From a bacterium (GTDB lineage: Bacteria > Pseudomonadota > Gammaproteobacteria > GCA-002705445 > GCA-002716945), in contig JAPOHH010000001.1 in NCBI GenBank assembly GCA_029979505.1, positions 119,034 through 183,033 on the forward strand: a stretch of DNA of 64,000 nt. The letters run 5' to 3'. Positions 32,380 to 54,315 of this stretch are shown here, one piece after another. Below the pieces are notes generated by a model. It made no database searches, was not told where the DNA came from, and saw nothing but the letters and a program-made list of their open reading frames with translations. The number at the start of each line of letters is the position of its first letter. The stretch's first letter is position 1. The translations under genes were made by a program, and so were the position numbers.

Positions 32380-32723
32380 GGGGGCGACCGGCTTCGACGT
32401 GGGTTGCGACACCTTAGGTGCATGTCGAGCTGATAGTAACTCGTAAAACTGCTGTAAAATATATAAACGCTGAAAATAAACCTTTAGCTCTAGCAGCCTA
32501 ACTGCCGCTAGCCTCTCTTGAAGTAGGCTTATATGCTTCAAAAAGAGGTCATAATGATAAGATCGTAGTTCATAAGCTTGTTGTTGAACTATTAAATTTA
32601 AACAAGCTAGTTTTTATGTAGGTTGTCTTTAACCAGCATAACGATGAAATTTAATTAAAGACTAAACATGTAGTACCGACGGCTTAGTTCTTGCGGACGG
32701 GGGTTCGATTCCCCCCGCCTCCA
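32380..32723 (+). ncRNA. ssrA: tmRNA
   Basis: GGGGGCGACCGGCTTCGACGTGG 5' end, tag reading frame ending GCTCTAGCAGCCTAA, 3' tRNA-like GGACGGGGGTTCGATTCCCCCCGCCTCCA; 7-bp acceptor GGGGGCG/CGCCTCC pairs. Confidence 0.96.
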
Positions 32724-32762
32724 ACATAATAAAAAAGATTTAGGAATTATTGCTAGCTAATC

Positions 32763-48036: not shown

Positions 48037-48626
48037 AAAATGAAACTATTGCATTAGGTGCAATCTATCAGGCTAGTAATGAGATAAAAAAAATAGCATG
48101 GGAAGGTATAATAACAAAAAATATTGTCCAGCCGCTTATTTATAGTATTTATCAAACAACATCAGAAGATATTGAAGATATTTATATAAATACAAAACGA
48201 CTTAATCCTGGACTAGATTTCTTACGAAAACAACTTGTTGGTGATGCATTTTCAAAAGATGCTGAAGTTACTAGATACTTTGAAGCTATTGGAATATTAG
48301 TTAAGAATATGAAAAAAAACGAGAAAGTTATTCTAAGTTTACGTGATGAACTGTCAAACAGTTCAAAAGAAGTTAGAGAGGATAATCTTGATGATCACGC
48401 AGAAACATTATCAAAACTTTACCTAAGGACAGTGAGTAAAGTGGAACCACGAATCATCGTTAACGGTGACAATAAACATCTCACAGATAGTAAGAATGCA
48501 TCAATGATACGTGCATTGTTGATGTCAGCAATTAGATCATATATATTATGGCAACAGTCAGGTGGATCCAAACTTAGAATCTTCCTATTTCGAAAAAAAA
48601 TTGCCGAATTAGCCCTCAGAGTCTAG
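48018..48626 (+). CDS. hflD: High-frequency lysogenization protein HflD homolog
   Basis: TIALGAIYQASNEIKKIAWEG, GRDFLRKQL-like region, C-terminal IRALLMSAIRSYILWQQSGGSKLRIFLFRKKI; directly follows mnmA. Confidence 0.88.
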   Translation: MFKRELKNETIALGAIYQASNEIKKIAWEGIITKNIVQPLIYSIYQTTSEDIEDIYINTKRLNPGLDFLRKQLVGDAFSKDAEVTRYFEAIGILVKNMKKNEKVILSLRDELSNSSKEVREDNLDDHAETLSKLYLRTVSKVEPRIIVNGDNKHLTDSKNASMIRALLMSAIRSYILWQQSGGSKLRIFLFRKKIAELALRV

Positions 48627-51208
48627 TTCGCAAGCTTTTTAAGTACATAGTTTAAAATGCCATCGCTGACAAAATAATCCCACTCTTTAGCAGTATCAAT
48701 TCTCACCTTAACTTCAAAAGACTTTCCGGTCTCTTTTTCTGAAATAAGTACAGAATTTGCATCTTTATTAATCTCTGCAATATCAAACGATGAAGTCATT
48801 GATAAACCAAGTAATTCAAAATTTTCATTGTCTTTAAATTGAAGCGGCATAATACCCATACCAACCAGATTTGATCTGTGTATCCTCTCAAAACTTTCTG
48901 CTATAACTGCTTTAACTCCAAGAAGTTTTGTGCCTTTCGCAGCCCAATCACGTGATGAACCGCAACCATAATCCTTACCAGCAAATATAATAAGATTAGT
49001 GTTATTCTTCTTGTATTCTTGAGCAGCATCATATATCGACATCTCAGTACCCTTAGGCAAAAGTTTTGTGTAGCCACCAGTCTTTTCTGGAACTAGCTTA
49101 TTAGATAAACGTATATTGGCAAAAGTACCTCTTTGCATAATTTTAAAATTACCTCTTCTAGATCCGTAAGAATTAAAGTCTTTTATTTTTACAGAATTAT
49201 CTATTAAATGTCTACCAGCTGGTGTTGTATCTTTAAAAGAACCCGCAGGTGAAATATGATCAGTAGTAACACTATCACCTAAAATTACAAGTGGGTATGC
49301 GGATTCAATTGCTGGTAATTTTTCTTGATTATCTTTTTCTTTACCAAAAAATGGTGAAGGTTGTATATAAGTAGATTTTTCGTCCCAATCAAAATGATCT
49401 GAGTCTGAGGTTGGAATAGACTTCCAATTACTATCCCCATCAAAAAGATTTTTATAAGAATTATTGAACATATCACCATCAATTGTCTTATTCATTATTT
49501 CATTGATTTCATCATTCGAAGGCCATATATCTTTTAGAAAAATATCATTACCTTCTTTATCCTGTCCTAGAGGAGTATGGTTAATGTCAATATTGATTTT
49601 CCCGATGAGAGAATATGCAACTACTAGCATTGGACTAGCAAGAAAATTCATTTTAATTTCAGGGTGAATCCTTCCTTCAAAGTTTCTATTTCCTGATAAT
49701 ATAGAGCTTACAACCAAATCCCTATCATTAATTTCTTTTACATATTTATCATCCAAAGGTCCAGAATTACCTATACATGTTGTACATCCGTACCCTACAA
49801 TATTAAAACCTAATTTATTAAGCGGGTCTAATAGCTCTGCTTTTTTTAAATAATTTTCTACAACTCTTGAACCAGGAGCCAGAGAAGTCTTTACCCATTC
49901 TTTGGTTGAAAGACCTTTTTCAATAGCTTTTTTAGCCAATAAGCCAGCTCCCAAAATTACACTTGGATTTGATGTATTAGTACAACTTGTGATAGCAGCA
50001 ATGAGAATGCTGCCATCATTAATCGTCCCTTCAGATTTAGATTGTTTTTTTAATTTATGTATTTCATCTTCTGAAATCTTTTTTACATCTGATAAAAGAA
50101 CTCTGTCTTGTGGGCGCTTTGGACCCGAAAGACATGCCTGTACCTGACTCATATCTAGAGATAGCGTATCTGTATACTTTATATCTTGGTTGTCATCTCT
50201 AAAGAATCCACACTCCTTGCTATAATCTTCAACTATTTGTAAATGATTATCATCCTTACCAGTCATTTTTAAATAATCAATTGTTAAAGCGTCAATTGGA
50301 AAAAATCCACATGTAGCCCCATATTCTGGTGCCATATTAGAAATTGTACATCTATCAGCAATACTCAAATTATCTAAACCTGATCCATAAAATTCCACGA
50401 ATTTTCCAACAACATTTTTTTCTCTTAACATTTGAACAATAGTTAAAACTAAATCTGTTGCAGTCGTGGTTTGACCTAATTTACCGGTTAATTCAAAACC
50501 AATAACTTCTGGAAGTAACATCGGTATTGGCTGACCAAGCATAGCAGCCTCTGCTTCTATACCGCCGACTCCCCACCCTAGTACACCTAAGCCATTGACC
50601 ATCGTAGTGTGAAAGTCTGTACCTACAACAGTATCAGGGTACAATTTACCTTCTTTTTCATATATGACTCTTGCAATATATTCGATATTAATTTGATGGA
50701 TTATTCCATTATTAGGCGGTACAATTCTGAGATTTTTAAATGCCTGCTGCCCCCATTTTAATAACTTATATCTTTCAGTGTTTCTCTCGTACTCTAGTTT
50801 AGTATTTAAATCTTTAGAATCAGAGGTACCAAAATGATCTACCATCACAGAATGATCTATGACTAAATCAGTTTGGCATTGAGGGTTTACTGCATCTGCT
50901 TTTGAAGCATCTAGTGATGTCATGGCATCTCTCATTGATGCTAAGTCGACAACTGCTGGTACGCCTGTGAAATCTTGCATTATTACTCTGCTAGGATAAA
51001 ATGTTAACTCCGTATTAGAGTCTGTACTGCCATTCCATTTAGTAAATTTCTCTACAATAGAGTCGAAATTATCATTGTCTGATTCGTTTCTCAGATAATT
51101 CTCCATTAAAACTCTCAATGAATAAGGAAGATGATTGATATTATATTTTTTGATATTAAAGACATTGAAGTTATTATTATTTATGGATATTTTTGTTTTT
51201 TCTGACAT
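48623..51208 (-). CDS. acnA: Aconitate hydratase (AcnA/IRP type)
   Basis: RVIMQDFTGVPAVVDLASMRDAM, AAITSCTNTSNPSVILGAGLLAKKA, GYGCTTCIGNSGPL, GSSRDWAAKGTKLLGVKAVIAESFERIHRSNLVGMGIMPLQF. Confidence 0.97.
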   Translation of the reverse strand: MSEKTKISINNNNFNVFNIKKYNINHLPYSLRVLMENYLRNESDNDNFDSIVEKFTKWNGSTDSNTELTFYPSRVIMQDFTGVPAVVDLASMRDAMTSLDASKADAVNPQCQTDLVIDHSVMVDHFGTSDSKDLNTKLEYERNTERYKLLKWGQQAFKNLRIVPPNNGIIHQINIEYIARVIYEKEGKLYPDTVVGTDFHTTMVNGLGVLGWGVGGIEAEAAMLGQPIPMLLPEVIGFELTGKLGQTTTATDLVLTIVQMLREKNVVGKFVEFYGSGLDNLSIADRCTISNMAPEYGATCGFFPIDALTIDYLKMTGKDDNHLQIVEDYSKECGFFRDDNQDIKYTDTLSLDMSQVQACLSGPKRPQDRVLLSDVKKISEDEIHKLKKQSKSEGTINDGSILIAAITSCTNTSNPSVILGAGLLAKKAIEKGLSTKEWVKTSLAPGSRVVENYLKKAELLDPLNKLGFNIVGYGCTTCIGNSGPLDDKYVKEINDRDLVVSSILSGNRNFEGRIHPEIKMNFLASPMLVVAYSLIGKINIDINHTPLGQDKEGNDIFLKDIWPSNDEINEIMNKTIDGDMFNNSYKNLFDGDSNWKSIPTSDSDHFDWDEKSTYIQPSPFFGKEKDNQEKLPAIESAYPLVILGDSVTTDHISPAGSFKDTTPAGRHLIDNSVKIKDFNSYGSRRGNFKIMQRGTFANIRLSNKLVPEKTGGYTKLLPKGTEMSIYDAAQEYKKNNTNLIIFAGKDYGCGSSRDWAAKGTKLLGVKAVIAESFERIHRSNLVGMGIMPLQFKDNENFELLGLSMTSSFDIAEINKDANSVLISEKETGKSFEVKVRIDTAKEWDYFVSDGILNYVLKKLAN

Positions 51209-51274: not shown

Positions 51275-51703
51275 TTACTTTAGAGGTAACTTCTTTTGCA
51301 CGCTCTCGATGTACATACCAAGAGAATCCTTGTTGTTTCGTGTATCTTTTTTTACAACAACATCCTGACCGTCATTTTTCAAACCTTTATATTTTTTCAG
51401 GAATTTATTTAATTTAAGTGATTTGTGAATCTTATATAGTCTGGGATTAGCATTTTTTTCTTTTATAAGCATTAAAACACTATCTTCATACACATGAGTA
51501 TTTAATATATAAAAGCTTTTAGGAAGGTCTGCTGTTGTTGCATAACCTTGGTTATCTCTAATACTTTGATATAAAACACTAAAAAATATTGAAATACTTA
51601 ATACTATAAATAATTTAGTTTTATATTTTTTATTTTTAATAAAATAATTAATTAGAAAAATATATATTAGTAAAAGTATCAATAAGTATAAATACATAAT
51701 CAT
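51275..51703 (-). CDS. Unknown small membrane protein, third gene of TolQR-like cassette
   Basis: Two N-terminal TM segments then soluble domain DNQGYATTADLPKSFYILNTHVYEDSVLMLIKEKNANPRLYKIHKSLK; 1-nt gap to upstream gene. Confidence 0.65.
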   Translation of the reverse strand: MIMYLYLLILLLIYIFLINYFIKNKKYKTKLFIVLSISIFFSVLYQSIRDNQGYATTADLPKSFYILNTHVYEDSVLMLIKEKNANPRLYKIHKSLKLNKFLKKYKGLKNDGQDVVVKKDTRNNKDSLGMYIESVQKKLPLK

Positions 51704-51704
51704 T

Positions 51705-52310
51705 TCAAAATCCTTTTAGGTTATATGGAGTAAGAATTTTTTTTTGTGAATCTCCAGATGAATACTCTCCTTTTGAGTCTAAAAAAAACCTTGTTACAGT
51801 TACTTCAGAATCTTTTTTTTCAAGTGTTATGTTATTGGCATAAACTAACTTTAATGTAGGATTTACTTTTTCAATAATTACCTTTACATCAATAGGATGA
51901 TTACTTTTATGTTCATAGAGATAAAGGTTTAAGATATATTCACCTGGTATAATTCCTCTAAGAGTAACAACTTCCCTATTTATAGGATAAATTATTTCCT
52001 CACCATCGATTGTGACTACATCATTGATTATACCTTGGTCATCTCTGTCGAGATGTAACCAGCCTGCATCTTTTTTTAGGTATGAGACTGTTTCGCCATT
52101 GGGATCTTGGACCCAAATATCAACATCATCTGGCAAACTATCTTTCCAATCAACTGTAATAATATACTCAGCTTTCATATTAACGTTGCCTATTTTCGAG
52201 ATAGGGTTTATAAAAAGGACTGTTATAAAAAAAAGGAAGGTAAAACCAAGTAGTGTATTGAATAATAAATCGGTGAAGGGTTCAGTTCTAGTTCTATTCT
52301 TTCTTCTCAT
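51705..52310 (-). CDS. TolR/ExbD-like single-TM protein with atypical periplasmic domain
   Basis: RRKNRTRTEPFTDLLFNTLLGFTFLFFITVLFINP (PF-x-D at TM start as in ExbD/TolR) followed by DVDIWVQDPNGETVSYLKKDAGWLHLDRDD...LRGIIPGEYILNLYLY. ORF opens at 52361; start at MRRKN (52310) chosen. Confidence 0.7.
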   Translation of the reverse strand: MRRKNRTRTEPFTDLLFNTLLGFTFLFFITVLFINPISKIGNVNMKAEYIITVDWKDSLPDDVDIWVQDPNGETVSYLKKDAGWLHLDRDDQGIINDVVTIDGEEIIYPINREVVTLRGIIPGEYILNLYLYEHKSNHPIDVKVIIEKVNPTLKLVYANNITLEKKDSEVTVTRFFLDSKGEYSSGDSQKKILTPYNLKGF

Positions 52311-52935
52311 GTCTCTCAGAGTTAAAAACTTTACTAATAAATATATTAATTTTAGTTTCAAAGAAATTATATTGTATCGTTAGAAGGATTGATGCAACTA
52401 ATCCAGTTAATGTTGTATAGAGAGCTACTTTCATCCCTGCACTCATGCTCAACAAAAGATTATTCATCTTTGACAAATTCATTTCATCAATAGCAGATAA
52501 TGAGCTTAGCATTATAATGAACCCTATAACTGTACCTATGATACCTAACTTGAGTAAAAGATCAGATATAAAAAAGCCGTTGTCTACAAATTCATATAGT
52601 TTTGATTTAAAATCATCTTTAAGATTCTCTTGGTTATCATTATTATCGCTTAGCTTTAGATACTCAGAGCTTATATCTAGAAATATATTATTCGATATAG
52701 AAGAATTGTTAGTATCTATTGTAAATACAGCATCTCTTAACTTATATAAGTAATATCCACACTGAATTAGATAAAAGTTAAAAATAATAAAAATTAATGA
52801 GGATATATAACTTATATCTGCCTCAAATATATTAGATATATATCCAATTGATTCTACAACGAATAAAGCTATAAAAATCAGAGATACGAAATAAATCCAA
52901 TAGATGAATATATTATCAATATCCGATTGTTTCAT
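52294..52935 (-). CDS. MotA/TolQ/ExbB proton-channel family protein
   Basis: C-terminal LGIIGTVIGFIIMLSSLSA...MSAGMKVALYTTLTGLVASILLTIQYNFFE matches TolQ/ExbB/MotA channel signature; 3 or more TM segments. Confidence 0.82.
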   Translation of the reverse strand: MKQSDIDNIFIYWIYFVSLIFIALFVVESIGYISNIFEADISYISSLIFIIFNFYLIQCGYYLYKLRDAVFTIDTNNSSISNNIFLDISSEYLKLSDNNDNQENLKDDFKSKLYEFVDNGFFISDLLLKLGIIGTVIGFIIMLSSLSAIDEMNLSKMNNLLLSMSAGMKVALYTTLTGLVASILLTIQYNFFETKINIFISKVFNSERHEKKE

Positions 52936-54315
52936 TTATATAAGTTTTTTTGGATCTAATATTTTTATTAACTCTGCTTTTGTAAGCGAGGTCATCTTCT
53001 CTGCTATGTCAAAAATTGAGCTGTTAGTCTTGTAAGCTTCTTTTACAATTTTAGAGGCCATATCATAACCAATAACTTGATTAAGCTTTGTAGCAATTAT
53101 TGGATTTTTGAATAAGCTATCTTCTACAGATTCAATATTTACAGAAAAGCTGTCAATTAAATCAATCATGCTAAACGAGCAATTAATCATTAAATATAAC
53201 GACTCAATTACATTGTGCGCAATCACAGGAAGCATAGTATTTAACTGGAAGTTACCACTACTACTAGCTTGCATGACAGTAGCATGATTACCGTTTACAT
53301 GCACAGCTGCCATCATAATAGATTCAGAAATAACAGGATTAATTTTTCCTGGCATGATACTGCTTCCAGGCTGAAGTGCTTTTAAGGTAATCTCCGATAA
53401 TCCTGATATAGGACCACTATTCATCCAGCGGATATCATTAGCAATCTTTAATAATGTAGATGAATATCTAGTTAAAGCAGAACTTAACGAAAGAATATGA
53501 TTTTGTGAGCTCATCATTTCTCCTTTAACTGATAAAGGCTTAAATTTTATTTTTAATTCACGATATATTTTATTAAGTTCAATGCAAACATTTTTAGAAA
53601 ATGATTTTGGAGCATTGATACCTGTCCCTATTGCAGTTCCACCAATTGGCAAATAAGATATCTCTTCACAAGATAAATCTATTTGTGCTTGAGATGCTCT
53701 AACTTGCTCTTCCCAGACATTAAGTTCTTGTTCAAACGAAATAGGTACAGCATCCATTAGATGTGTTCTCCCTGACTTAATAATATTTTTTAAATTTTTT
53801 GATTTTTTATTTAATGAATCACACAAGAAATCAAGAGATGTAGATAATGTCTTACTCATAGTCAAACAAGATATATTAATAGTGGTAGGAATTACATCAT
53901 TTGAACTTTGCGACATATTCACATCATCATTTGGATGTATCGTCCGCTTAAGTGTTCTCTTGGCAACTTCAGATATAACTTCATTCATATTCATGTTTGT
54001 ACTTGTACCTGAACCTGTCTGGAAAATATCAATTGGAAAATGATCGATAAAATCTATTGGATGAGATGAGATTTTTTTACTAATATTTGATATTGCTGTT
54101 CCTTTAGCTTTTGTAAGTGTTTTACATGCAACATTAGCAGATGCGCAAGCATTCTTAAGACTAGCTAGTGCTTGTATGAATGCTGGATCAAATGTGATTC
54201 CACTAATTTTAAAATTATCTACAGCACGCTGTGTTTGAGCTCCATAAAGTGCATCTTTTGGAACTTTAATTTTTCCTAATGAATCCTCTTCAATTCTATA
54301 ATTATTTTTTGTCAT
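52936..54315 (-). CDS. fumC: Fumarate hydratase class II
   Basis: DSLGKIKVPKDALYGAQTQRAVDNF, GSGTSTNMNMNEVI, GSSIMPGKINPV. Confidence 0.96.
   Translation of the reverse strand: MTKNNYRIEEDSLGKIKVPKDALYGAQTQRAVDNFKISGITFDPAFIQALASLKNACASANVACKTLTKAKGTAISNISKKISSHPIDFIDHFPIDIFQTGSGTSTNMNMNEVISEVAKRTLKRTIHPNDDVNMSQSSNDVIPTTINISCLTMSKTLSTSLDFLCDSLNKKSKNLKNIIKSGRTHLMDAVPISFEQELNVWEEQVRASQAQIDLSCEEISYLPIGGTAIGTGINAPKSFSKNVCIELNKIYRELKIKFKPLSVKGEMMSSQNHILSLSSALTRYSSTLLKIANDIRWMNSGPISGLSEITLKALQPGSSIMPGKINPVISESIMMAAVHVNGNHATVMQASSSGNFQLNTMLPVIAHNVIESLYLMINCSFSMIDLIDSFSVNIESVEDSLFKNPIIATKLNQVIGYDMASKIVKEAYKTNSSIFDIAEKMTSLTKAELIKILDPKKLI

Follow-up and report, generated by a model that had tools for sequence, protein, structure and literature searches.

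Three co-directional and nearly touching genes, hereafter the trio, occupy positions 51275-52935 on the minus strand of the window (the whole stretch of 64,000 nucleotides that was analysed), where they are situated between fumC and acnA. Gene 1 (52294..52935) encodes a channel subunit of 213 amino acids with four transmembrane (TM) segments and a short cytoplasmic loop, assigned to the MotA/TolQ/ExbB superfamily; gene 2 (51705..52310) a subunit of 201 amino acids with a single TM helix and a predicted periplasmic beta domain; and gene 3 (51275..51703) a protein of 142 amino acids with two TM helices, a small domain and a C-terminal P-x-K that is conserved in the alignment. Genes 1 and 2 overlap by 17 bases and a single base separates genes 2 and 3. 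The upstream neighbour fumC (52936..54315, minus strand) abuts gene 1, its end at 52936 lying directly beside the gene 1 start at 52935, and the downstream neighbour acnA (48623..51208, minus strand) follows gene 3 at a distance of 66 bases. Both retain their position in the family, and in the lineage of the window these TCA-cycle genes are the trio's only neighbours. All three open reading frames described in the original prediction exist, and, as it had stated, no tol, pal or tonB gene lies near them. A TTG at 52361 was rejected as the start of gene 2: because most relatives have stop codons between this TTG and the ATG at 52310, the latter is almost certainly the true start, giving the 201 amino acids. 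Elsewhere in the window, a tmRNA gene (Rfam RF00023, 203 bits) accounts for a gap without long open reading frames (32380-32726).

The trio is a real, widespread and strictly conserved three-gene unit. Within the family, 24 genomes other than that of the window were sampled; 20 of them have the trio, and the loci fetched from these relatives, which have genomes of about 1 Mb and whose reading frames were called mechanically, show the order fumC-gene 1-gene 2-gene 3-acnA wherever the contig reaches. From this conserved position and the low dN/dS of gene 2 we conclude that the trio genes are not chance open reading frames. A gene 2 profile matched 41 of 369 gammaproteobacterial genomes (29 of 270 genera) and also some alphaproteobacteria, and at least 511 relatives of gene 2 were confirmed; bacterial and viral samples were picked by similarity to the query, which biases prevalence and tree shape accordingly. 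Among the named alphaproteobacterial records with relatives are marine single cells and a metagenome-assembled genome (MAG) titled HIMB59-MED-G10; other named records comprise MAGs titled Legionellales, Thiotrichaceae, Chromatiales and Candidatus Thioglobus, and the Olavius algarvensis Gamma 3 symbiont. In one MAG titled Flavobacteriaceae (L109, PBJZ01000005.1) gene 2 is 95% identical to that of the window, and the record looks mislabelled or mixed. Of 140 bacterial copies of gene 2, 136 have gene 1 and 131 have gene 3 in their locus; the copies that miss a partner are mostly at contig ends or divergent relatives. The order is unchanged in essentially every bacterial locus uncut by a contig end, a few divergent relatives excepted. 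The genome-neighbourhood check proposed in the original prediction thus recovered the trio in other bacteria and, as described below, in phages; a plasmid search gave no match.

Gene 1 possesses the TolQ/ExbB/MotA channel signature that had been claimed for it. It matches PF01618 over the Pfam cut-off (E=1.3e-11; 44.8 bits, cut-off 22.9), hydropathy indicates four TM segments, and it shares G131, G134, T135, G138, G167, A171, L172, T175, G178 and L179 with TolQ and ExbB. The motif GIIGTVIG in TM3 (52522..52545, minus strand), which includes the channel threonine T135, aligns with GTVWG/GTVFG of TolQ/ExbB; T175 likewise aligns, and an alignment of bacterial gene 1 proteins shows both threonines conserved. 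By profile and signature residues gene 1 is a member of the MotA/TolQ/ExbB superfamily.

The only TM helix of gene 2 (residues 11-34; 52209..52280, minus strand) is indicated by the AlphaFold2 model and by hydropathy, and contains the PFTD motif (52269..52280, minus strand), so that the TolR/ExbD-like segment with PFxD of the original prediction is confirmed. Copy by copy, the proposed ion-binding aspartate D14 of this motif is kept in 291 of 300 sequences, namely all 164 phage and 127 of 136 bacterial copies. The nine exceptions, from alpha- and gammaproteobacteria, have A or V instead, and all nine also have K in place of N18, a charge swap one helix turn apart (L071, L073, L078, L086, L189-L192 and L196). 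Judged from the alignment, these substitutions are a coupled change, and since the nine copies lack the aspartate, ion coupling may be different or absent there.

Behind the helix, the model of gene 2 (mean pLDDT 87.5) is all-beta, with a predicted periplasmic domain of 11 strands (51756..52172, minus strand) in which conserved columns are found, among them the acidic residues D62, D64, D90, D91, D97 and E113 that bacteria and viruses share. As had been supposed, this is not the TolR/ExbD fold: hhalign pairs just 12 TM-motif columns with ExbD (probability 0.6%), a full-length TolR/ExbD (PF02472) relationship is rejected, and a Pfam search with gene 2 of the window gave no match, OmpA and DUF2135 included. 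The suggested likeness to DUF2135 (PF09906) fared less clearly. For one gene 2 relative the score was 22.3 bits when its genome was scanned, against a cut-off of 22, and 19.8 bits when the protein was searched, and hhalign of the periplasmic domain gave E=1.8e-4 but a probability of 48%; a relationship is plausible but borderline. The structural search recommended for this domain returned no solved structure at E<=0.001, and sequence profiles of gene 2 found chance-level matches alone in the PDB. Four viral fold matches at E<=0.001 have modest TM-scores of about 0.4, which we take as loose beta-sandwich similarity and not as homology. Gene 2 identity is 91-97% despite saturated or near-saturated synonymous change, and its dN/dS (0.013-0.018), a sign of strong purifying selection, is similar to the value for the neighbouring aconitase (0.021-0.025); compared with 0.11-0.17 for gene 1, it marks gene 2 as the most constrained part. 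For gene 3, model (AlphaFold2 pLDDT 88.5) and hydropathy agree with the two TM helices originally claimed, to which a small mixed domain is added; a fold search of the PDB yielded nothing at E<=0.001.

The trio resembles TolQ-TolR(-TolA) in its channel protein with GTVxG and ALxTxxGL motifs, in a partner with one TM helix and a PxxD-type aspartate, and in the gene order channel, helix protein, third membrane protein. In contrast to that system, however, the periplasmic part of gene 2 is a beta domain, gene 3 has two TM helices and neither a TolA-like linker nor a TolA-like domain, gene 1 has four TM segments and a short loop, and the TolB and Pal partners of Tol-Pal are missing. ExbB-ExbD(-TonB) belongs to the same superfamily and likewise features an aspartate-bearing helix, but the genome of the window holds a separate ExbB beside TonB-dependent receptors, where relatives have ExbD genes, and the ExbDs of these relatives align with gene 2 over 12 TM columns alone. 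Like MotA-MotB and PomA-PomB, the trio has a four-TM channel protein, for which MotA/PomA were the best, though weak, profile matches among motor structures; it lacks the torque-generating cytoplasmic domain and the OmpA-like peptidoglycan domain. A MotAB flagellar stator was rejected, gene 2 being all-beta without an OmpA match. The original prediction had named Zorya as a system to which the channel might belong, and gene 1 resembles ZorA at the superfamily level. It is not ZorA: in PADLOC it matched only parts of profiles that are 460-700 positions long, scoring about 25 bits, genes 2 and 3 gave no match and fit no defence family there, and the long ZorA tail, a ZorB match and ZorC/D/E are all absent. 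That a TolQ-like ring can enclose a helix with a periplasmic domain other than that of TolR has a precedent in the pairs of TolQ and TPH-vWA (Mol Biol Evol 2025, PMC12204202). Those proteins, however, carry von Willebrand domains, occur usually in pairs and are not accompanied by a third gene like gene 3, while beside some trios the VWA protein is encoded separately and has an FHA domain. According to a survey of stator homologues (PMC12505986), those outside the flagellum are heterogeneous. A search of the open-access literature turned up no description of the trio, nor anything relevant on DUF2135, on TolQ with xoxF, or on TolQ or a proton channel with Rhizobium phage.

Bacterial copies occur in three settings. 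In setting (a), genes for a YkuD L,D-transpeptidase and a DUF302 protein (with a lipobox in L064) precede gene 1, and a VWA/TM/FHA protein follows gene 3; two-component and cytochrome b561 genes flank this group on one side and tilS-accA-dnaE on the other. In setting (b), a lipoprotein whose N-terminal cysteine is invariant comes after the trio, and a PQQ methanol/ethanol dehydrogenase is often close by. In setting (c), which includes the window, the trio stands alone. Two genomes (G143 and G258) each hold one (a) and one (b) copy, which points to distinct uses of these settings. The linked lipoprotein family also adjoins dehydrogenases away from the trio (e.g. G143:C3, G090:C75), and no unlinked copy of it was found in the window's family. 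A SoxYZ-like carrier and a quinoprotein-relay hydrolase adjoin the trio in a gammaproteobacterium and in an alphaproteobacterium (L074:516-8873, L189:7175-14963). We found no fixed fourth partner, neither in bacteria without the partners named above nor in viral loci; as no partner beyond the trio is conserved, its task cannot be read from context.

Phages carry the trio as well. By tblastn, gene 2 was found in 27 phage records, every one from Rhizobium or Sinorhizobium phages, and in each of the five records that were read all three genes are present in the usual order, their products annotated as hypothetical. In two of them (L235:4800-7235 and L237:5221-7502, Rhizobium phages) homing endonuclease genes separate members of the trio, Seg-like in one and HNH in the other; in both, a gene for a trypsin-like protease is directly upstream of gene 1. 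Alignments confirm all three phage proteins as relatives. Among the phage gene 1 proteins, one of 148 amino acids (23.0 bits) and one of 113 (27.3 bits) narrowly pass the PF01618 cut-off of 22.9 bits, and a third remains just under it at 22.5; no PHROG covers the phage trio proteins tested. At least 308 viral stretches in IMG/VR encode a gene 2 relative, some on contigs of 300-527 kb. Both partners are present in 157 of the 159 viral loci fetched and in all 142 away from contig ends, the independent contigs being fewer since a few loci are overlapping fetches of the same contig. The neighbour families (phage DNA polymerase, primase, SbcC-like, late sigma factor, terminase) identify these stretches as phage contigs. 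A tree was built from 111 gene 2 sequences after dereplication. It places the 32 bacterial copies of the main type on a single branch (SH-aLRT 99), compared with which the viral set is more diverse, and a second deep group unites five divergent bacterial copies with two Rhizobium phages. Forcing the main viruses into one clade is not rejected (p-AU 0.89); on these sequences the direction of transfer between phages and bacteria is left unfixed, and transfer from phages to bacteria is neither supported nor excluded.

The family to which the window belongs is unusual in its envelope genes. TolB and Pal profiles detected nothing in the whole genome of the window or in any of 14 family genomes, two of which are rated 99-100% complete, and the Pal profile found no OmpA-domain match in the family either, whereas TolB was present in all 12 other genomes tested and Pal was likewise found in comparison genomes. 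Membership of the trio in a Tol-Pal system is rejected for this family. In none of the 14 genomes does the number of PF01618 genes exceed two, namely an ExbB and gene 1, and some incomplete genomes show one. Three of the ExbB loci were read; TonB-dependent receptors adjoin ExbB in all three, and two of the loci also have a pair of ExbD genes close by. The family appears to have kept ExbBD and the trio and to have lost Tol-Pal.

We consider it rather probable that the trio represents one inner-membrane complex, a subfamily of its own among ion-driven 5:2 motors, which acts in the periplasm. Gene 1 would form a ring-shaped channel and a gene 2 dimer would place its helices inside this ring, where D14 may take up and release an ion beside the channel threonines T135 and T175. 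The resulting movement would act on the periplasmic beta domain of gene 2, which would replace the TolR/ExbD fold. As a third membrane subunit, gene 3 would take the place of TolA/TonB in coupling or regulation. The work is likely done on the cell envelope (peptidoglycan or outer membrane), and some lineages do have a YkuD L,D-transpeptidase, a DUF302 lipoprotein and a VWA-TM-FHA protein by the trio; bacterial lineages would have added such partners, whereas the trio found in phages is bare and compact. The original prediction spoke of an ion-driven envelope complex of unknown function. As far as superfamily and motifs go, this is well supported; beyond it, we infer complex formation, stoichiometry, ion flow and a periplasmic task, and thereby a mode of working like that of the TolQR/ExbBD-type motors.

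Other explanations deserve attention. The trio could serve periplasmic quinoprotein (PQQ/lanthanide) metabolism, as an energised factor by which methanol dehydrogenase or its metal is loaded, trafficked or matured. Eleven trio genomes have a PQQ methanol/ethanol dehydrogenase no more than about 20 kb from the trio on its contig (G098, G226, G372, G049, G213, G131, G602, G258, G143, G657 and G364, the match in the last just below the family cut-off), against about 1.4 expected from a rough Poisson estimate that assumes genome size and gene number and ignores relatedness. The enzyme is over the cut-off in 30 of 53 trio genomes and in none of 14 controls, and the trio of L074 has the SoxYZ-like carrier, the quinoprotein-relay hydrolase and a CXXCW protein beside it. 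Yet the window's family and three further families (f43, f94, f127) have the trio and no such enzyme over the cut-off, phage trios lack a dehydrogenase, and the second trio of G143 and G258 sits in the L,D-transpeptidase setting, which makes this explanation improbable. We think it equally doubtful that the trio is a phage-related module that controls the envelope of the infected cell (by superinfection exclusion, or by delaying or aiding lysis) and was kept by some bacteria. In its favour speak the presence of all three genes in viral contigs and in Rhizobium phage isolates of several sizes, the diversity of the viral set, and the position of the trio in RHph_N34, where it has gyrase A on one side and late sigma factor and exonuclease genes on the other, outside the annotated virion genes. 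On the other hand, the tree does not fix the direction, bacterial copies reside in conserved core-gene settings under strong selection, and genes 2 and 3 resemble no PADLOC defence family.

In the window's family, the missing TolB and Pal and the small number of PF01618 genes raise the question whether the trio has taken over the role of Tol-Pal. We regard this as unlikely: the absence may be a by-product of genome reduction, and most other trio genomes tested, including marine alphaproteobacterial single cells, retain Tol-Pal, so that the trio did not simply originate as a replacement for Tol-Pal, whose role was not its ancestral task. Least probable of all is a membrane scaffold of motor ancestry that does not conduct ions. 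The nine copies in which the aspartate is lost, always with N18K, would agree with it, whereas the invariance of this residue in phages, its retention in the great majority of bacterial copies and the conserved channel threonines argue against it.

If the trio is such a motor, it adds to those of MotAB, TolQR and ExbBD a subfamily that has a third subunit and whose working part in the periplasm is of another kind. The phage gene 1 proteins, at 113-148 amino acids, may rank among the smallest members of the channel superfamily and are attractive for structural work. The hundreds of phage contigs with the trio lead to the question of what use its own proton-type motor is to a lytic phage. It is conceivable, and we propose it tentatively, that many phages carry their own three-protein ion-driven motor, working on the host envelope while infection proceeds and exchanged with proteobacteria, and that in a genome-reduced marine family without Tol-Pal it is the sole motor besides the TonB energiser. 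The trio may thus bear on how bacteria live without Tol-Pal.
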